39,071 nt of DNA, taken from NCBI GenBank assembly GCA_014874175.1, contig JACWAD010000081.1, forward strand, positions 1-39,071. Direction: 5' to 3'. Both the position numbers and the translations under genes were made by a program. The notes beneath the pieces are model-generated. The model was not told the DNA's origin. It made no database searches and saw only the letters and a list, made by a program, of their open reading frames with translations. How positions within the stretch are numbered: the first letter of the stretch is position 1; every line of letters begins with the position of its first letter. Below, piece after piece: positions 3,600 through 35,506 of the stretch. Origin of the DNA: Thermoleophilia bacterium. Lineage in GTDB: Bacteria; Actinomycetota; Thermoleophilia; BMS3ABIN01.

Positions 3600-5366
3600 A
3601 TGACAATTTCATTGAATGACAGGATCGAGCCGTTGCTCGAGCAGGTGGAGAAGCCGGCCCGTTATATCGGCGGCGAGATTGGCAGCGTTGTAAAGAAGGA
3701 ATATTCATGCCGCATCGTCCTTAGCTATCCCGATGTCTACGAAATCGGCACCGCCAATCAGGCTGTGCAGGTAATTTATTCGCTTGTTAATGAGACTACC
3801 TCAGCTTGGGCCCAGCGCGCCTTTTGCCCCTGGACAGACGCAGCCGAGGCAATGCGGAAGATGAAATTGCCCCTGTTTTCGCTTGAGAGCTGGCAACCGG
3901 TCAGGGACGCTGACCTCTGGGGCATTACGATGCAGTTCGAGCTAACCTATACCAATATTCTTGAGCTGCTGGATCTGGCCGGCGTCCCCGCCCGCAGCCG
4001 TAAACGGACCGAAGCTGATCCCATCGTGTTTGGCGGCGGCCCGGCAGCCAGCAATCCCCACCCAATGGCGCCTTTCTTTGACTTTATCATCATTGGCGAT
4101 GGTGAGCTTCTTGTGCCGGAGGTTATCCGCACTTATGAGGAAAACCGGGGGTTATCACGCCAGGAAATCATCAGCAGGATCGCCGGACTGGAAGGCATTT
4201 ACGTCCCCGGGACCGGCCGGCCGGCCGTCAGGGCGGTTGTGCCAGGGCTTTCGCTCAGGGAGACTCCCTTAAAGCCGGTGGTGCCCGTCATGCATTCAGT
4301 ACATGACCGCGCCACGCTGGAAATCATGCGGGGCTGCACCCGGGGCTGCCGCTTTTGCCTGGCGGGTTTCTGGTACAGGCCAGTGCGGGAGCGGCCCTGG
4401 GAAGAGGTGTGCCACGCCGCCGCATGCCTGCTGGAAGCGACAGGGTGCGAGGAAGCGTCTTTAAGCTCGCTGTCGACGACTGATTACAGCAATATTTCCA
4501 CCGTGATCAGGAAGCTGGCCGAGCAGAGTCCGGGACTCACGATCTCTTTGCCATCGTTACGGGTTGATGCTGACGTTTTCCCGTTGCTTCAGCTCATCCC
4601 GGCAAGGAAAGGCTCAATCACGTTCGCTCCTGAAGCCGGCAGCCAGCGCCTGCGGGACGTGATCAACAAGCAGGTGACCAGCAGCGACATCGAGACTGCG
4701 CTGACCGAGGCCTTCAGGCTCGGCTACATCACGGTCAAGCTTTATTTCATGATTGGCCTGCCCGGGGAGACGGAAGCGGACCTTGAGGCGATTGTTGACG
4801 CCGCTGCCACCGCCCGCAGCATTGGCCGAAAGAATGCCCCCGCCCCGGGCCGGCTGCAGATAAACGTCAGCGTCTCGACCTTCGTACCCAAGCCGCATAC
4901 CCCGTTTCAGTGGGAAGGAATGAACAGCCGGGCGGAGCTGCAAAGAAAACAGGGATTCCTCAGGCAGAACGTGCCCCGGAAGCAGATTCGCCTTAGCATG
5001 CATGACATCGGTCCCAGCCTGGTGGAAGGGGCGATTGCCCGCGGCGGCGACATGACTGCAGACGCGATTGAAGCTGCCTGGCGCGCAGGCGCCCGCTTTG
5101 ACGCCTGGACGGAGATGTTTGACCTGGGGGCGTGGCAGCAGGGCTTCAGAGCTATTTCCAGCACGATAGAAACCGAAGCCATGCGGCAGTTCTCTGTTGA
5201 AGGTGCGCTGCCGTGGGATGATATTGACTCGCGCGTTGACAAACAATTCCTTTTGGAGGAAAAGAAGAAGGCGGAAAGGGCCGAGGTCACGCCCGACTGC
5301 CGCCAGACCGGCTGCTATCTATGCGGCGTCTGCGAAGGAGACATTGAGATGCGGGTTGCAGAGTGA
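3600..5366 (+). CDS. TIGR03960-type B12-binding radical SAM protein
   Basis: RGCTRGCRFCLAGF radical SAM CxxxCxxC; N-term KPARYIGGEIGSVVKK; C-terminal Cys cluster CRQTGCYLCGVC. Confidence 0.9.
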   Translation: MTISLNDRIEPLLEQVEKPARYIGGEIGSVVKKEYSCRIVLSYPDVYEIGTANQAVQVIYSLVNETTSAWAQRAFCPWTDAAEAMRKMKLPLFSLESWQPVRDADLWGITMQFELTYTNILELLDLAGVPARSRKRTEADPIVFGGGPAASNPHPMAPFFDFIIIGDGELLVPEVIRTYEENRGLSRQEIISRIAGLEGIYVPGTGRPAVRAVVPGLSLRETPLKPVVPVMHSVHDRATLEIMRGCTRGCRFCLAGFWYRPVRERPWEEVCHAAACLLEATGCEEASLSSLSTTDYSNISTVIRKLAEQSPGLTISLPSLRVDADVFPLLQLIPARKGSITFAPEAGSQRLRDVINKQVTSSDIETALTEAFRLGYITVKLYFMIGLPGETEADLEAIVDAAATARSIGRKNAPAPGRLQINVSVSTFVPKPHTPFQWEGMNSRAELQRKQGFLRQNVPRKQIRLSMHDIGPSLVEGAIARGGDMTADAIEAAWRAGARFDAWTEMFDLGAWQQGFRAISSTIETEAMRQFSVEGALPWDDIDSRVDKQFLLEEKKKAERAEVTPDCRQTGCYLCGVCEGDIEMRVAE

Positions 5367-5408
5367 CCATTCCAATGCTTGAGTTGGTCTGGAATTCCTC
5401 GGCCTTCT

Positions 5409-5439
5409 TGAACCCGGAACCGGAACTTTGAACTTTAAC
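5409..5439. repeat. Degenerate 6-7-nt repeat (GAACCCG/GAACCG/GAACTTT/GAACTTT/AAC)
   Basis: Same GAAC-centred unit as other sites; overlaps TTG 5428. Confidence 0.7.
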
Positions 5440-6117
5440 TACCGAATGCAGTTCTCAAAAACGGGGCGAGCCAGGTTTATCGCCCATCTTGATACCCTCA
5501 GCCTGCTGGTGCGGGCGATCAGGCGGACGGGATACCAGCTGGCGTTCACGGAGGGCATGCGCCCCAAGCCCATTCTCAGCCTGGCGATGCCACTCGGGGT
5601 TGGCGTTGAAGGGGAGGACGAAATCTGCGATTTTGCCCTTAGGCAGCGGGTGCCGTTGGACGAGTTTTCACGCAGGCTGAGCCGGCAGCTGCCGGAGGGA
5701 ATCATTTTCAAGTCCGTCGCTCCCTGTTACGAGCGCAGCAAGTCGGCCTCCCGGGTGGCGTCCGTGTCCTACCGGGTTGAGTTTCCGGGCGGTGAAGACT
5801 GGGAGGAAGCCGCAGCCAGATACAACCGCGAGAAAGAGCTGGTGACTCTAAGGAAACGTCCCAAGGGAGACAAGAACGTTGATGTTAAGAGGTATGTTGA
5901 CAAAGTTGGCATAGGCAGGGAAGGCTGCCTGGAGTTTGACATGAGGGTGACATCCGGCGGCACGGCCCGCCCGGAAGAAGTGATCAGGCTGCTGGAAGAA
6001 TTTGCGGGTCGCAAATCAGGCAGATACAGAATAGTTCGTACCGCCGTCATCCTGGACAGGGAAAAGCCGCCCCGGCCAAACGGGCGGCCCGGGCGCAGCC
6101 GGCGCCTTCACCGCTAG
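5428..6117 (+). CDS. TIGR03936/DUF2344 radical SAM-associated protein
   Basis: MQFSKTGRARFIAHLDTLSLLVRAIRRTGYQLAFTEGMRPKPILSLAMPLGVG; TTG start at 5428 or ATG at 5446. Confidence 0.88.
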   Translation: MNFNYRMQFSKTGRARFIAHLDTLSLLVRAIRRTGYQLAFTEGMRPKPILSLAMPLGVGVEGEDEICDFALRQRVPLDEFSRRLSRQLPEGIIFKSVAPCYERSKSASRVASVSYRVEFPGGEDWEEAAARYNREKELVTLRKRPKGDKNVDVKRYVDKVGIGREGCLEFDMRVTSGGTARPEEVIRLLEEFAGRKSGRYRIVRTAVILDREKPPRPNGRPGRSRRLHR

Positions 6118-6161
6118 CAACAGGCAAAAAGCCGCTGTTTCATTCCGGATTCCGGGCGCGG

Positions 6162-6167
6162 TATAAT
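6162..6167 (+). promoter_or_regulatory. Putative -10 (TATAAT) of a promoter upstream of rng
   Basis: TATAAT about 165 nt upstream of the rng start; -35 weak (TTCATT, spacing 17). Confidence 0.35.
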
Positions 6168-6329
6168 TCCGGTTTGCCGGCGAAAGAAACTCCAGGGCCT
6201 GGCGGTCGTTTCCATCGGGCAGCTTTAGGGAATTCTCTGACCGCCGGGCGGGCAGAAGAAACAATCAGGTTTATAAATTTTTGAGCAGGTTGTTTATTTT
6301 TCAGCCTGCAGTTCAGGAAAGGTTGAAAT

Positions 6330-8093
6330 ATGGCCACTCGCGCCAAGCAAATCCTGGTGAGCACCGAGCCAGGCGAGACCAGGGTCGCAATCCTCGAAAA
6401 CGGCCGGCTGTGCGAAATCTATGTCGAGCGCAAGGGGCGGCGGCAGCTGGCCGGCAACATTTACAAAGGCAAGGTTGAAAACGTCCTTCCCGGGATGGAG
6501 GCGGCGTTTGTCGACATCGGGCTGGAGAAGAACGGTTTTCTCTACGTGGAAGAGGTGATGGTCCACGAGAATCCTGACAAACGGCCCAAGAAAATCACGC
6601 AAATGCTTAAGTCAGGCCAGGAGATACTCGTCCAGATCGTCAAGGATCCGATGGGAACGAAAGGCGCGCGCCTGACTACCCAGCTGTCCATCCCCGGCCA
6701 TTTTATTGTTTATATTCCTGACGGCGAGGGTGTAGGCGTATCCCGCCGGCTACCTGACGAAGAGCGGCTGCGGCTGCGGCAGATCTGCCGGGAGCTGGAT
6801 GTTGGCAAAGCCGGCCTGATCGTGCGTACCGCCGCCGAGGGCGTCTCAAAACGCGATCTCGCCAATGACCTCAAGTTCCTGAAGAAGATGTGGCAGACAG
6901 TACGGGGCCGCGAGAAGGCAACCAAGGCCCCGGCTCTGCTTTACTCGGAAATGGAGGTCTCGCTCAAGGTCCTGCGCGACGTTTTCAATGAGAGCCACCG
7001 CCAGATCCTTGTTGATTCACAGAAAGAATATGACAAGATGCGCTCTTTTCTGAAAAAGACTTCTCCGGAACTGGTAAGCCGTGTGGAGCTGTACCAGGGC
7101 AGCGCCCCCCTGATGGAGACATACGGCGTCGATGAGGAGATGAAACTGGCGCTGGAAAAGCGCGTCGATCTGCCCAGCGGCGGCTACCTTGTCATCGAGG
7201 AGACTGAGGCCATGACCATCATCGATGTTAATACCGGCCGTTATGTGGGACGGACCAGGCTGGAAGACACGATTGTCAGGACCAATATGGAAGCCTGCAA
7301 GGAAGTCGTCCGCCAGTTGAGGCTGCGGGACATCGGCGGCATCATCATCATTGACTTTATTGACATGACGCGCGCGCGCAACCGCCAGCAGGTGCTGGAG
7401 ACGCTTGACCGGGAGCTTGAGACAGACCGGACAAAAACCTATATCGTCGAGCTGTCGCCGCTGGGGCTGGTGGAAATGACCCGGCAGAACGTCACGGAGG
7501 GGCTGCGCGACATCCTTACAAAAACCTGCCCCACCTGCAACGGGGAAGGCGTGATTGTCTCCGAAGAGACGATGGCGATTGACATCGAGCGGCGGCTCAG
7601 GCGGCTGGCTGCTTCATCCGCCAGCGAGGCTTTCCTGGTGGAGGTGCATCCAAAAGTGGCGGCGATGCTTATTGGCCAGGGAGGCGTCAAGCTGAAAGAG
7701 CTTGAGCAGGAGACGGGCAAATATTTCAGCTTCGAGGGCCTGGACATCATTCCAATCGAAACATTTGAAATCACCGCCGAAGGCAGCCGCGAAGCGATCC
7801 AGCGGGCTTCGCTGCCAGTGGCCGAAGGCGATGAGGTCCGGCTCAGAATTGAAGAGCCGCATATGTACAACCCCTCAGACGCAATCGCAAAGATTGACGG
7901 TTACGTGGTAAGCATCGCCGGAGCCAGCGGCATGGTGGGCGAAGACAGGAAAATACGGATAGACAGCGTTACCAGGACTTGCGCGTATGGCACGGTTGTC
8001 ACGGAAGAGAAGAAAGAAGAGAAACCTGCAGGCGAGGAGGAGCCCGAAGAAGCCGAGGTTCCCAAGCGGCAGGACTACGGGCTGAAGAAGTAA
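6330..8093 (+). CDS. rng: Ribonuclease E/G family protein with C-terminal TRAM-like domain
   Basis: S1-like N-term, DVNTGRYVG, IGGIIIIDFIDM, Zn-link CPTCNGEG; C-term segment ending VGEDRKIRIDSVTRTCAYGTVV. Confidence 0.93.
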   Translation: MATRAKQILVSTEPGETRVAILENGRLCEIYVERKGRRQLAGNIYKGKVENVLPGMEAAFVDIGLEKNGFLYVEEVMVHENPDKRPKKITQMLKSGQEILVQIVKDPMGTKGARLTTQLSIPGHFIVYIPDGEGVGVSRRLPDEERLRLRQICRELDVGKAGLIVRTAAEGVSKRDLANDLKFLKKMWQTVRGREKATKAPALLYSEMEVSLKVLRDVFNESHRQILVDSQKEYDKMRSFLKKTSPELVSRVELYQGSAPLMETYGVDEEMKLALEKRVDLPSGGYLVIEETEAMTIIDVNTGRYVGRTRLEDTIVRTNMEACKEVVRQLRLRDIGGIIIIDFIDMTRARNRQQVLETLDRELETDRTKTYIVELSPLGLVEMTRQNVTEGLRDILTKTCPTCNGEGVIVSEETMAIDIERRLRRLAASSASEAFLVEVHPKVAAMLIGQGGVKLKELEQETGKYFSFEGLDIIPIETFEITAEGSREAIQRASLPVAEGDEVRLRIEEPHMYNPSDAIAKIDGYVVSIAGASGMVGEDRKIRIDSVTRTCAYGTVVTEEKKEEKPAGEEEPEEAEVPKRQDYGLKK

Positions 8094-8096
8094 ATG

Positions 8097-8125
8097 TTAC
8101 ACTTCAATCTGTACTTTGTTATAAT
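8097..8125 (+). promoter_or_regulatory. Sigma70-type promoter TTACAC-N17-TATAAT upstream of rplU
   Basis: TTACAC 8097-8102, 17-nt spacer, TATAAT 8120-8125. Confidence 0.65.
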
Positions 8126-8214
8126 CGCAAAGGCTTGAGTTAAGCGACACACCTGAGTTAACAGGATGGGCATAAATTTTCTGCTCATACAACTGCTCAG
8201 GTTCGCAGGAAAAA

Positions 8215-8305
8215 TGTCATTCTGAGTAGCCCTATCGGCTCCGCTCAGGGCAGGCTCCGGCGACGAAGAAACTGGATCTTTAGCCCTATTAAGCCCAGGA
8301 TGACA
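8215..8305. repeat. Imperfect palindromic intergenic repeat (TGTCATTCTGAG...CAGGATGACA), copy 1
   Basis: Terminal inverted ends; internal GCTCAGGGCAGGC is the reverse complement of GCCTGCCCTGAGC in copy 3. Confidence 0.65.
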
Positions 8306-8345
8306 CAGGACCTGAGTCATTGGGAACCTGGAGCTTGGTTTTTTT

Positions 8346-8729
8346 ATGTACGCAGTCATTGACACAGGCGGCAAACAATACAGGGTCGAAAAAGGCGACG
8401 ATATAATTGTTGACCGCCTTGGCCTTGCGGAGGGCAAGGCTGTGTCTTTTAAGCCAGTGCTGCTGGGTGGCGGCAAAGCCGCCACAACCGCTGCTGAGCT
8501 TAAAGGCGCGCGGGTCAAAGCCAGAGTGGAGGAACATCTGCTGGGAAAAAAGATCCGGGTTTTCAAGTACAAGCCCAAGAAGACTTACAAGCGAATGCGC
8601 GGTCATCGCAGCCGCCTGTCGCGGATTAGAGTCCAGTCCATCACCGCGGCTTCGTCCAGAAAAAAGCCGGAAGCGGCTGCAAAGACCGAGCCGGAGAAGA
8701 AAGCAGAAAAAAGGGCAAAAGCGGAATAA
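8346..8729 (+). CDS. rplU: 50S ribosomal protein L21 (bL21) with Ala/Lys/Glu-rich C-terminal tail
   Basis: MYAVIDTGGKQYRVEKGDDI...KKTYKRMRGHRSRLSRIRV. Confidence 0.96.
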   Translation: MYAVIDTGGKQYRVEKGDDIIVDRLGLAEGKAVSFKPVLLGGGKAATTAAELKGARVKARVEEHLLGKKIRVFKYKPKKTYKRMRGHRSRLSRIRVQSITAASSRKKPEAAAKTEPEKKAEKRAKAE

Positions 8730-8790
8730 GGCTTGCCCGGCCTGGTGGTTTTCGGCCGCGGATAATTATTTAGAGTAAAGAGGAAAAAAA

Positions 8791-9048
8791 ATGGCGCACA
8801 AGAAAGGATCGGGCACAAGCAGGAATGGGCGCGACTCGCGGGCGCAGCGGCTTGGCTGCAAGCGTTTTGGCGGCCAACTGGTGCCGGCGGGAGCGATCAT
8901 TGTCCGTCAGCGCGGCACCAGGTTTCTGCCCGGGCCGGGCGCCGGCATGGGTGGCGACAACACCATCTTCGCCACCGTTTCGGGCCGCGTTGTCTTTTCC
9001 AACGGAAGCGCGCGGACGATCAGCGTGATCGCGGGGGAAGGCTCCTAG
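8791..9048 (+). CDS. rpmA: 50S ribosomal protein L27 (bL27)
   Basis: [31 protein letters not shown]. Confidence 0.97.
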
Positions 9049-9302
9049 ACCATAATCTTGGGCGCCTCTGTCAGGCGCACTGCGGAACGCATCTCGATTG
9101 GAATCAGGCCGTTTGAGACCGCCGAAAGCTAGACGCCGAAGAGAACTTTTTCGGCAAAAAAGGTAACGTCGTGAGCCCCCCATCCTTGACGAAAGTTTTT
9201 CCCTGCTCCGGTCAAATCTTTGACACTCAGCTCTTTTCTTAATTGCTGGCCTAAGCTAGTTTTTTTGCAATCCCAAAACGAAAGCTGCCGGTTTTTAACC
9301 CG

Positions 9303-9376
9303 GGATCCTTCGGCTTTGCCTCAGCGCTTGCCCTGAGACAGGCGAAGGGATGACAAGAAACCTGAGTGAAGGATGG
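9303..9376. repeat. Palindromic intergenic repeat, copy 2 (GATCCTTCGGC...CTCAGCGCTTGCCCTGAG...AAGGGATGACA...CCTGAGTGAAGGATGGG)
   Basis: Clear homology to 26551-26634. Confidence 0.7.
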
Positions 9377-9383
9377 GCGCTTA

Positions 9384-10784
9384 ATGTTTTACGATCAGGC
9401 AACTGTGGAGATACAGGCCGGGAAGGGCGGCAATGGCTGCATCAGTTTCCGCCGTGAAAAATTCGTTCCCAGGGGCGGCCCCGACGGCGGCGACGGCGGC
9501 AGCGGCGGCGATGTCATCTTTGCCGCTGGCGCTAGCCTGCGCGATCTGGCTTTTTTACGCAGGCGCCGCAAACTTAACGCCGGCAACGGCAGGGCGGGGG
9601 AGGGAAACAAAAAACACGGCAGTCGCGGCCGGGACCTGTTGATCGAGGTGCCGTGCGGCACACAGGTTTTCGAGCAAGGCTGGGCGGAAAAACAGGGTTC
9701 CGGTGCCGCGGCGGGAGCGCAGCATGCTGCCCTCCCGCTGGCCGATCTGGTCGCGGCTGGCCAGCGCTATACTATCGCCCACGGGGGTGAAGGAGGGCGT
9801 GGCAACGCCCGCTTTGCAACCTCTACGCGGCGCGCGCCACGTTTTGCCGAGCTGGGCCTGCCAGGCGAAAGAAAAAGGATTATGCTGAAGCTGAAATTGC
9901 TCGCTGACGCCGGCCTCCTCGGTTTTCCCAACGCCGGCAAGTCTTCCCTCATTAGAATAATTTCCAACGCAAAGCCAAAAGTGGCGGATTATCCGTTTAC
10001 CACTGTAGCTCCCATGCTTGGCACTGTAGAAGATCCGCGGTCGCGGAATCAGTTCACCATTGCGGATATTCCCGGCTTGCTGGAAGGGGCAAGCAGGGGT
10101 TCCGGGCTGGGTGACGAGTTCCTGGCGCATCTGGAGCGCAGCAGCCTCCTTATCCATCTTGTTGATGTCAACGGTTATTACGGCAAAAGACCTCTGCAAA
10201 ACTTCAAGATTATCAACAGGGAGCTGGCCGGCTTTAGCCGGGATTTGGCGGCAAAGCCGCAGTTTGTGGTTGTAAATAAAACCGATTTGGTCAGTGAGGA
10301 GCGGGCAGGCGCGGTGGCCAGGTCCCTGGCTGCGGAGGTTGCCAGGCGCTTCCGGGTGGGCGATCCCGCTTTTGCATGGCTTGGGGATGGGGAAGGCCAC
10401 ATTTCGCGGAAAGGCGGCCCGGCGGTGTTAATGGTTTCTGCAGCAACGGGGCAGGGGGCGCAAGCCCTTATCAGCCGCGTTTTTGACCTTCTTGCCCGTT
10501 TACGCCTGAAGCTGCCCGCTAAGCAAGCTGAACAGCTGAGTCATGTCATCTACCGTCCCGGCGAACGGGAAGGCTTCAGCGCAACTGCCGAAAACGGGCG
10601 TTTTTTTGTCAGGGGCCGCGCAGTGGAAAAGCTGGTGGCCCGCATTGATTTTGGCAATGATGAAGCCGTGTCATACCTTAAGCAGCAGCTTGAGCGTTTG
10701 GGTGTCAGTGAAGCTTTACGCCAGGCAGGCGCCAGGAGAGGACAGGCCGTGCAGATCGGGGGAACGGAACTCGAGTTTTGGTAA
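9384..10784 (+). CDS. obgE: GTPase Obg (CgtA)
   Basis: MFYDQATVEIQAGKGGNGCISFRREKFVPRGGPDGGDGG; GFPNAGKSSL P-loop; C-terminal OCT-like domain. ORF extends to GTG 9366 but ATG 9384 fits the family. Confidence 0.95.
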   Translation: MFYDQATVEIQAGKGGNGCISFRREKFVPRGGPDGGDGGSGGDVIFAAGASLRDLAFLRRRRKLNAGNGRAGEGNKKHGSRGRDLLIEVPCGTQVFEQGWAEKQGSGAAAGAQHAALPLADLVAAGQRYTIAHGGEGGRGNARFATSTRRAPRFAELGLPGERKRIMLKLKLLADAGLLGFPNAGKSSLIRIISNAKPKVADYPFTTVAPMLGTVEDPRSRNQFTIADIPGLLEGASRGSGLGDEFLAHLERSSLLIHLVDVNGYYGKRPLQNFKIINRELAGFSRDLAAKPQFVVVNKTDLVSEERAGAVARSLAAEVARRFRVGDPAFAWLGDGEGHISRKGGPAVLMVSAATGQGAQALISRVFDLLARLRLKLPAKQAEQLSHVIYRPGEREGFSATAENGRFFVRGRAVEKLVARIDFGNDEAVSYLKQQLERLGVSEALRQAGARRGQAVQIGGTELEFW

Positions 10785-32684: not shown

Positions 32685-32714
32685 TTGACACCGTATTGTG
32701 CCGAAGTGTAGAAT
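32685..32714 (+). promoter_or_regulatory. Promoter TTGACA-N18-TAGAAT upstream of the cytochrome operon
   Basis: TTGACA 32685-32690, TAGAAT 32709-32714. Confidence 0.55.
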
Positions 32715-32777: not shown

Positions 32778-33956
32778 ATGAAGGGTAGAACAATTTTAGC
32801 CTCGCTGGTACTGGTTCTGTTCCTGGGACTGGTCGGCTTCACGGTCTGGGGAGTGCACAAGACCAACTCTCCGCAATTCTGCGAAAGCTGCCATATCATC
32901 AAGCCCTACGTGGATACCTGGCAGGCTTCCTACATGGGGAAGCGCGGCGTTACCTGCATCGACTGCCATTTTGACCCCGGCGTACTGGGTTATTTCCGGG
33001 GCAAGGTCTATTCTCTTATCAAGCTCACTGAGTACGCCTTCCGGACGTACGACCGGCCGCCGGCATCGGCCACCCTGCTCACCAGCACCGCCTGCCTGCA
33101 ATGCCATGGCGACCAGAAGAACTCGAAATATCCAGATGCCCAAGACGTGGTCAATCCAAATGCGGCCAGCTATCCAAAAATTGCCGTTACCGATCAGTAC
33201 GACCCAAATCCAGCGACACGGACCATCATGTTCCCTCACGACTTCCATGTCAATACGGCTCAGATCGCCTGCGCTGACTGTCATTCGGGCGTGGTGCATG
33301 GCAATAAGCTGCCGGGAACCAGCGATCAGCCGCAGGCGGCGGCAAAGACGGAGTTTTGCGCCAGCTGCCACACCGGCGACACGGCTCCCATCCTGTTTGG
33401 CAAGGTAAAGCTGACCGGCCAGCAGCACCCGGGGGTGCCCAAGATCGACATTGCCATCTGGCGCAACAATCACTGGCGGGTGGCGCACGGCCCCGGAGTC
33501 ATTAACGGCGTCATGTATGACAAGATACAGCCGCAGACATGCCTTGCCTGCCACCAGGATCCGACGGTGGCAAAGGTATGCAAGAGCTGCCATCTGCCGA
33601 CGGAGCCGACTTTCTCGGCAACGACCCAGACGCAAGAGGCCAGCGCCGCTCCGCTTAGCATGTTCGGCCTAGTGATCGGCATCTTTCTGGTGACGCTGGT
33701 GCCGTATCCGAAAGTACAAAAGTTTATTTTCGAGGGCTGGATTGCGCTCGTCCTTGCCGCTGCTGTCATGGTTACTGATCTTTATGCGATTTATGTTGTT
33801 ATGTCGGAGGTTGTGAAAACTACATCGGGCAACCGCAACATCGGGCCTGTAACACTATGGATTGCTTATATGATTGCCAGCGCCAGCCTGCTGACTTTCC
33901 TGTTCCACCAGGGCGTGCTGAAGCCGAGACGCAGGAGGCTGGAGCGGAAAAAATGA
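32778..33956 (+). CDS. NapC/NirT-like membrane multiheme cytochrome c (7 CxxCH) with C-terminal TM helices
   Basis: CESCH, CIDCH, CLQCH, CADCH, CASCH, CLACH, CKSCH; N-term TM and about 3 C-terminal TM segments. Confidence 0.9.
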   Translation: MKGRTILASLVLVLFLGLVGFTVWGVHKTNSPQFCESCHIIKPYVDTWQASYMGKRGVTCIDCHFDPGVLGYFRGKVYSLIKLTEYAFRTYDRPPASATLLTSTACLQCHGDQKNSKYPDAQDVVNPNAASYPKIAVTDQYDPNPATRTIMFPHDFHVNTAQIACADCHSGVVHGNKLPGTSDQPQAAAKTEFCASCHTGDTAPILFGKVKLTGQQHPGVPKIDIAIWRNNHWRVAHGPGVINGVMYDKIQPQTCLACHQDPTVAKVCKSCHLPTEPTFSATTQTQEASAAPLSMFGLVIGIFLVTLVPYPKVQKFIFEGWIALVLAAAVMVTDLYAIYVVMSEVVKTTSGNRNIGPVTLWIAYMIASASLLTFLFHQGVLKPRRRRLERKK

Positions 33957-34432
33957 ATGAAACAGAAAAAACAGGCGTGACGGAAGAAGAAAAGCAGGGC
34001 GGGCTGGAGGTTACACGCCGGCGCTTTCTCAGCTTTCTCTTCGGGCTGGCGACCGCCATTGGCCTGGGCGCCTTTGTGGCGCCGCTGGTCAGGTACGCCT
34101 ACCCCGTTATCAAGCCGGAGGAATACCCGAAGGTTAAAGTTGCTTCCGTGAGCGATGTCACCAGCGAGGGCGTCCGCTTCGACTACCAGGATGTGCCGTC
34201 CGAGCTGATCCAGCTGAAAGACAAAAGCTTTGCGGCCTACTCGCTTGTATGTACACATCTAGGATGTATTGTCAAATGGGAAGCAAACAACCATATTTTC
34301 CACTGCCCCTGCCACGGCGGCAAATTCGACGAGACGGGCAAGAATATCAGCGGGCCGCCGCCTAAACCTTTGACAAAATACAAGACTTCAGTTCAGGGTA
34401 ACGATATTTACGTGGAGGGAATTGCTTCATGA
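33953..34432 (+). CDS. Rieske 2Fe-2S protein
   Basis: CTHLGCIVKW and FHCPCHGGKFD; N-term TRRRFLSFL Tat-like segment; ATG overlaps preceding stop (ATGA). Confidence 0.95.
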   Translation: MNETEKTGVTEEEKQGGLEVTRRRFLSFLFGLATAIGLGAFVAPLVRYAYPVIKPEEYPKVKVASVSDVTSEGVRFDYQDVPSELIQLKDKSFAAYSLVCTHLGCIVKWEANNHIFHCPCHGGKFDETGKNISGPPPKPLTKYKTSVQGNDIYVEGIAS

Positions 34433-35079
34433 AGCTGGGCGTAGTTGATTTCCTGGATGAGCGGCTGGATGTCAGGCGCATTGCCCGCGAGTTTGCCGAG
34501 CACAGGGTGCCGGACCACGTCAACTGGCTGTACTGTTTTGGCGGCATTACTTTCCTGTGTTTCATGGTCCAGGTGGCGACGGGCATCCTGCTGGCGTTTT
34601 ATTACCAGCCCACGACCGCCAGCGCTTACACCAGCGTACTGCATATTTCCGATGACCTGCCCTTTGGCGTCATATTGAGGAGCCTGCACGCGTGGACTGC
34701 CAACATCATGATCATCATGGTTATTGTGCACATGCTGCGCGTCTTTTTCCATGGCGCCTACAGGCCGCCCCGGGAGCTAAACTGGGTCACGGGAGTGTTG
34801 TTGTTCTTCATGACGGTAACCTTTGGGTTCTCCGGTTACCTGTTGCCCATGAACCAGCTCTCCTACTGGGCAACCAAGGTCGGCAGCGAGATTGCGGGCG
34901 CGATGCCTTTTGTGGGCCAGTACATCCAGAATTTCATGCTGGGAGGCGCCAAGATCAGCGACCCGACGCTGACCAGGTTTTACGCCATCCACGTGGTTAT
35001 TCTGCCCGTTGTGCTGTCGGCTTTTCTGGCGGCGCATTTTTACATGATTCGCAAGCAGGGAATTGCAGATCCGCTCTAG
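34429..35079 (+). CDS. petB: Cytochrome b6-type subunit
   Basis: HVNWLYCFGGITFLCF..., paired heme-b His LHAWTANIMIIMVIVHMLRVFFHGAY and AIHVVILPVVLSAFLAAHF; ATGA overlap. Confidence 0.94.
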   Translation: MKLGVVDFLDERLDVRRIAREFAEHRVPDHVNWLYCFGGITFLCFMVQVATGILLAFYYQPTTASAYTSVLHISDDLPFGVILRSLHAWTANIMIIMVIVHMLRVFFHGAYRPPRELNWVTGVLLFFMTVTFGFSGYLLPMNQLSYWATKVGSEIAGAMPFVGQYIQNFMLGGAKISDPTLTRFYAIHVVILPVVLSAFLAAHFYMIRKQGIADPL

Positions 35080-35092
35080 GCGAGGGAGAGTA

Positions 35093-35506
35093 ATGAGTCC
35101 GGAAAATGAACAGCACTCTGATCACGGCGAAGGCGGAGTACCGTTTCTTCCCGATCATTTCGTCAAGGAACTGGCGGTAATTACCCTGATCATGGGAGTG
35201 CTGATTTTTTTGGCGACGCTGATGCCGGCGCCGGTGGGCCTGCCTGCTGATCCTCTAAAGACGCCGGCCGGCATCAAGCCTGAATGGTATTTCCTCAGCG
35301 TTTACCAGATACTAAAATATGTTCCAAAAAATGTCGGCATCGCCTGGTCTTTTCTGATCTTCCCGCCAATTTTGATAATTTTCCCGTTTTTTTACAGGCA
35401 GTACACTCGTTTCAAATACGGGCGGCTGATCCTGCACACATTGGGGGCGCTGGGAGTGCTGTTTGCGGTTTTCCTGGCCTTCCTTGCTTATCTGGGGTTT
35501 GAGTAA
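35093..35506 (+). CDS. petD: Subunit IV-type (PetD-like) C-terminal cytochrome b polypeptide
   Basis: KPEWYFLSVYQILKYVP (PEWY Qo motif), three TM segments; ATG 35093. Confidence 0.9.
   Translation: MSPENEQHSDHGEGGVPFLPDHFVKELAVITLIMGVLIFLATLMPAPVGLPADPLKTPAGIKPEWYFLSVYQILKYVPKNVGIAWSFLIFPPILIIFPFFYRQYTRFKYGRLILHTLGALGVLFAVFLAFLAYLGFE

Follow-up and report, generated by a model that had tools for sequence, protein, structure and literature searches.

A conserved b6f-type operon with a seven-heme cytochrome c in two families of Thermoleophilia

The c-type subunit of a Rieske/cytochrome b complex determines where the complex can deliver electrons, and the locus described here has a membrane cytochrome with seven heme sites as the first cistron of an operon that otherwise resembles those of cytochrome b6f complexes. 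The window, by which we mean the whole stretch of DNA analysed (39,071 nucleotides), belongs to an uncultured Thermoleophilia-like actinobacterium whose genome assembly comprises 1.78 Mb in 107 contigs and is estimated to be 95.7% complete. A first-pass annotation had described four coupled or nearly abutting genes at this locus, and the coordinates agree with that description (Table 1): the stop codon of the cytochrome gene and the ATG of the Rieske gene overlap in an ATGA, the Rieske stop and the b6 ATG overlap in the same manner, and the ATG of subunit IV lies 13 bases downstream of the b6 gene. The redox motifs that it had reported for the four proteins are also confirmed, and all five Pfam families named in Table 1 match above their cut-offs.

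Table 1. Features of the operon and of its seven-heme cytochrome, with positions in the window.
Feature	Position	Strand	Basis
Promoter-like site, TTGACA-18-TAGAAT	32685..32714	+	63 bases 5' of the cytochrome gene; 11/12 consensus matches only
Membrane cytochrome c with seven hemes (first cistron, 392 aa)	32778..33956	+	7 CxxCH; PF03264 and PF14522
Residues 10-91: NapC/NrfH-like module with N-terminal anchor, hemes 1-2	32805..33050	+	PF03264; match to NrfH 2j7a
c7/c3-like part, hemes 3-7, residues ~105-275	33090..33602	+	PF14522 at residues 151-203; invariant columns
C-terminal membrane part, three predicted helices (283-306, 321-347, 357-381)	33624..33920	+	AlphaFold2 helices
Rieske [2Fe-2S] protein, 159 aa	33953..34432	+	CTHLGC / CPCHGGKF; PF00355
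Cytochrome b6, 216 aa	34429..35079	+	His 87/101/188/203, Cys36; PF00033
Subunit IV, 137 aa from ATG 35093	35093..35506	+	PEWY at residue 63; PF00032

The genes for the core subunits place the operon with the b6f-type complexes. Cytochrome b is split into two chains, unlike the single-chain cytochrome b of the bc1 complex with its seven to eight helices, and Pfam searches find no cytochrome c1 in the operon, which does not belong with the bc1 complexes. The features expected of a b6f-type core are present, namely a four-helix b6 separate from subunit IV, bis-histidine heme ligands, the PEWY motif and the heme ci/cn cysteine of b6, Cys36, which aligns with the heme-ci cysteine of 1q90_B and 2zt9_A. 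Profile searches find no match to cytochrome f in the operon, and the seven-heme protein is encoded in its stead. The first-pass annotation had named the operon a quinol oxidase, a name that has to be dropped because nothing in the set reduces O2; the genes are those of a quinol:cytochrome c reductase, and we read the operon as encoding a putative menaquinol:multiheme-cytochrome c reductase.

The CxxCH motifs of the cytochrome are at residues 35, 60, 106, 165, 194, 255 and 268, and the protein appears to be built of three parts. It had been described as NapC-anchored, which is correct for the N-terminal ~90 residues and fails beyond them: the PF03264 match covers only positions 14-99 of the 174 in the profile, the full-length NrfH and napC_nirT profiles score below their cut-offs (52.6 bits against 134.2, and 19.9 bits against 310.6), the CxxCHxM of NrfH heme 1 is absent (CHI-I here, CHI-M in 2j7a_C), and three extra helices follow at the C-terminus. 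The match to PF14522, the cytochrome c7 family, lies in the middle part, and no Pfam family reaches its cut-off over the C-terminal membrane part. AlphaFold2, run with 26 sequences, predicts one long helix at the N-terminus and three at the C-terminus, these three with pLDDT values mostly of 63-86; the heme part of the model is poor (mean pLDDT 50).

All seven heme sites are kept in the 26 homologues, and the cytochrome gene is under strong purifying selection, with a dN/dS against a congener of approximately 0.055/0.85 (approximately 0.015/0.66 for b6). The low dN/dS and the retention of every heme together argue that the seven-heme cytochrome is not a chance arrangement. Two homologues (L015 and L016) have Cx4CH rather than CxxCH as the heme 3 motif, with the sequences CLQIGCH and CLQKGCH. 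Exactly five histidines outside the CxxCH motifs are invariant across the 26 sequences (154, 157, 174, 217 and 232), so that at most five hemes can have a conserved distal histidine; two of the seven may be open or otherwise ligated. Lys76 and Lys82 are invariant as well, the former lying 12 residues past the second heme histidine, which we take to be the spacing of Lys82 in NrfH.

The cytochrome is obligately linked to the Rieske and b6 genes. Its family occurs in 22 of 299 genomes of the class, 15 in the host family (f1) and 7 in a second Thermoleophilia family (f5), and every full-length relative adjoins Rieske/b6 unless a contig ends; the first-pass annotation had held that finding the cytochrome apart from Rieske/b6 in relatives would refute it, and these genomes offer no such case. 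In the host family the cytochrome and b6 are found together in 15 genomes and are both absent from 4 (G010, G012, G014 and G016). In the second family the two disagree only at contig ends (cytochrome in G100, b6 in G091), and in G104 the locus is split over two contigs. Second copies of the cytochrome gene in G057, G082 and G100 were considered as detached genes and rejected, as all of them lie at contig ends. The block whiG-(DUF192)-cyt7-Rieske-b6-IV-STT3 is kept in the host family wherever contigs reach far enough, often with mscS next after STT3.

Outside these two families the full-length cytochrome was not encountered among 397 genomes of the phylum, in which the other families match the N-terminal NrfH-like part only. 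Scanning the genomes of 84,980 species with the family alignment, by means of two-peptide patterns that favour close relatives and may let distant homologues escape, returned only Actinomycetota and Bacterium BMS3Abin01, for which no phylum is given; the named relatives are uncultured Actinomycetota, several of them labelled Thermoleophilia, plus the latter. A plasmid collection searched with the cytochrome gave no match.

Sister families of the class carry smaller c proteins beside the same core. The Rieske/b6 loci of family f3 have an adjoining heme protein with two CxxCH motifs, and those of families f4, f6, f7, f9 and f10 have a one-CxxCH protein just downstream of b6. Because a one- or two-heme c protein thus stands beside Rieske/b6 in these families, the seven-heme cytochrome can be said to occupy the place of the c subunit, and the c subunit has been exchanged on one core within a single class. 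No substitute for cytochrome f or c1 is present in the seven-heme loci. In a tree of 41 b6 sequences, those with a seven-heme partner from both families form one branch with support of 100/99, and the one-heme and two-heme sequences each group together (93/100 and 90/88); the tree has a midpoint root and only partly settled bootstrap values, and gives no order of exchange. The heme-ci cysteine is present in the seven-heme and two-heme b6 proteins (YCFGG, NCFGG) and replaced in the one-heme proteins (YTLGS). The f5 loci encode, besides the seven-heme protein, a four-heme protein after subunit IV, and some of these complexes then carry genes for 6-heme, 2-heme and 10-heme cytochromes (L038, L073 in G086 and L081 in G104).

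Synteny, co-occurrence and the b6 clade accordingly bear out the earlier proposal of a Rieske/b6/IV complex that has recruited a multiheme c subunit, and we conclude that the operon is a genuine, conserved and lineage-restricted b6f-type variant.

The Rieske protein has CPCHGGKF where the Rieske proteins of solved b6f complexes have CPCHGSQY, a replacement of Ser and Tyr by Gly and Phe, and the corresponding motif in the second family is CPCHAGxF or CPCHGGAF. The Ser and Tyr of this motif are hydrogen-bond donors that raise the potential of the cluster; since the pair is missing, the motif suggests that a low-potential cluster of the menaquinol type is to be expected. The heme-ci cysteine of b6 combined with a Rieske protein of this kind fits a menaquinol complex.

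We consider it probable, and hold with good confidence, that the operon encodes a Rieske/cytochrome b complex of the b6f type, which oxidises menaquinol through a Q-cycle and in which the seven-heme membrane cytochrome stands in for cytochrome f. One electron per quinol would pass through hemes bL, bH and ci back to the quinone pool, and the other would enter the heptaheme chain by way of the low-potential Rieske cluster, to be handed on to a multiheme partner in the periplasm or at the cell surface. We infer from the sequence evidence that the cytochrome belongs to the complex as a structural subunit, that the quinone is menaquinone and that the net flow runs from quinol outward, and any protein named below as the partner is a candidate on the same terms. 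It is plausible, as the first-pass annotation had proposed, that the heptaheme chain acts as an electron wire of some length and not in the manner of a monoheme shuttle.

The same complex could also run mainly in reverse, with a donor in the periplasm or outside the cell feeding electrons through the heptaheme chain to menaquinone, driven by the proton gradient. The organisms that carry the operon are uncultured actinobacteria that probably take part in sulfur cycling, and one comes from an acidic pit lake; the reverse reading is favoured by dsr genes in the host and in a congener. One contig of the host genome (L106, G000:C5, 2-10517, + strand) encodes DsrK and a DsrJ-like protein followed by dsrA, dsrB and a DsrL-like gene for an NAD(P)-binding protein, and then an apparent second dsrAB set, recognised by eye without a profile, with another DsrL-like gene. 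To judge by its name, B_ACT_11 (L028), a congener, is apparently a metagenome-assembled genome from the study of the pit lake Cueva de la Mora, in which Actinobacteria including ACT_11 are described with both reductive-type and oxidative-type dsrAB (PMC9326234). However, the operon has no donor oxidase linked to it, forward menaquinol oxidation would suit a low-potential Rieske cluster equally well, and direction cannot be set from sequence; we regard operation mainly in reverse as unlikely.

It is distinctly unlikely, in our judgement, that the cytochrome is instead a separate menaquinol dehydrogenase of the NapC/NrfH type that is co-transcribed with the Rieske/b6 complex and remains outside it. 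Such an enzyme would account for the NrfH/NapC-like module at the N-terminus and for the invariant Lys76 with its presumably NrfH-like spacing, but it would not be expected to occur invariably with Rieske/b6, it would leave these loci without a c subunit to fill the role of cytochrome f or c1, and the missing CxxCHxM and the low NrfH score speak against it as well. A bifurcating complex that passes the low-potential electron to NAD(P)+ is highly improbable, since the complexes of Kuenenia that would be its model, although likewise b6f-type with a multiheme c subunit (PMC12954380), include an NAD(P) oxidoreductase subunit, a gene for which is found neither in the operon nor in the conserved block around it.

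The window contains no gene for an electron acceptor, as the first-pass annotation had stated. Searches of the host genome found neither NrfA nor a full COX1. A COX1-like sequence of 147 aa (L108, G000:C59, 3974-4417, - strand), matching profile positions 311-404, is either a fragment or a small stand-alone protein, and a cydA-like sequence (G000:C58:5939-7221, - strand) is split between two frames with one TGA inside, possibly through a frameshift or an assembly error. The bd oxidases accept quinol directly. The genome also encodes a second Rieske/b complex, with a diheme c subunit (L078, G000:C101, 7389-10335, + strand). A further locus (L110, G000:C94:32000-44000, 4168-10418, - strand) encodes a Phs/Psr-like molybdoenzyme with ferredoxin-like and NrfD subunits together with 7-heme (258 aa) and 12-heme (335 aa) cytochromes, and by its gene content would be a reasonable candidate partner of the operon. 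A specific link between the two was considered and rejected, because the Mo subunit, present in 18 of 19 family members, is kept in three that have no operon. The scan of the host genome for CxxCH codons covers contigs up to 72.

A biochemical characterisation of the exact gene set would, by the first-pass annotation's own account, also have refuted it; the open-access literature, which gives incomplete coverage and excludes subscription journals, yielded neither such a characterisation nor any paper on a heptaheme Rieske/b6 set. We put forward tentatively, with somewhat less than even confidence, that the operon encodes a previously undescribed menaquinol:heptaheme-cytochrome c oxidoreductase restricted to two Thermoleophilia families, that in its c subunit a NapC-like module is joined to a string of c7-like hemes and to a three-helix membrane domain of a new kind, and that c subunits with one, two and seven hemes have been exchanged on a single Rieske/b6 core within one class.

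The b6f complexes of spinach, Chlamydomonas and cyanobacteria (1q90, 2zt9, 6rqf) share with the operon a separate b6 and subunit IV, a Rieske protein, bis-histidine ligands, the heme-ci cysteine and PEWY, and differ from it in having cytochrome f in place of a seven-heme membrane cytochrome and in the Rieske motif. The NapC/NrfH quinol dehydrogenases (2j7a) resemble the cytochrome in the N-terminal anchor and the first two heme sites, whereas the cytochrome has seven hemes, four membrane helices and no CxxCHxM, and is always beside Rieske/b6. Rieske and cytochrome b genes are also clustered with multiheme c genes in Methanoperedens (PMC4683180), but that cluster is archaeal and consists of eight genes, including those for two pentaheme cytochromes and another c-type subunit.

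The closest bacterial precedents, to which the first-pass annotation had not pointed, are in Geobacter and Kuenenia. The ext cluster of Geobacter encodes ExtN (10-heme), ExtO (Rieske), ExtP (cytochrome b), ExtQ and ExtS (4-heme) (PMC5877670), and like the operon it combines a multiheme c protein, a Rieske protein, a cytochrome b and a small membrane protein; the four-heme gene of the f5 relatives recalls ExtS. The heme counts differ, b6 narrowly misses the ExtP equivalog (266.8 bits, cut-off 290), subunit IV misses that of ExtQ (23.6 bits, cut-off 150), and no porin or rhodanese gene is among the annotated neighbours of the operon. In Kuenenia, Kustd1480-1485 and Kuste4569-4574 encode complexes with a b6f-type core in which a hexa- or octaheme c protein replaces cytochrome f (PMC12954380); the operon differs in its seven hemes, in lacking the NAD(P) oxidoreductase and an HAO-like subunit, and in its short subunit IV, which has five helices in the Kuenenia complexes. 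The exchange of a one-heme for a multiheme c subunit on a b6f core is thus already known in a few bacteria, and the seven-heme version, set beside these hexa-, octa- and decaheme precedents, is a new one. The same core with one-, two- and seven-heme partners in one class forms a compact natural series for studying c-subunit exchange, and lets one ask whether the choice of c subunit goes with the acceptor, with the quinone or with heme ci.
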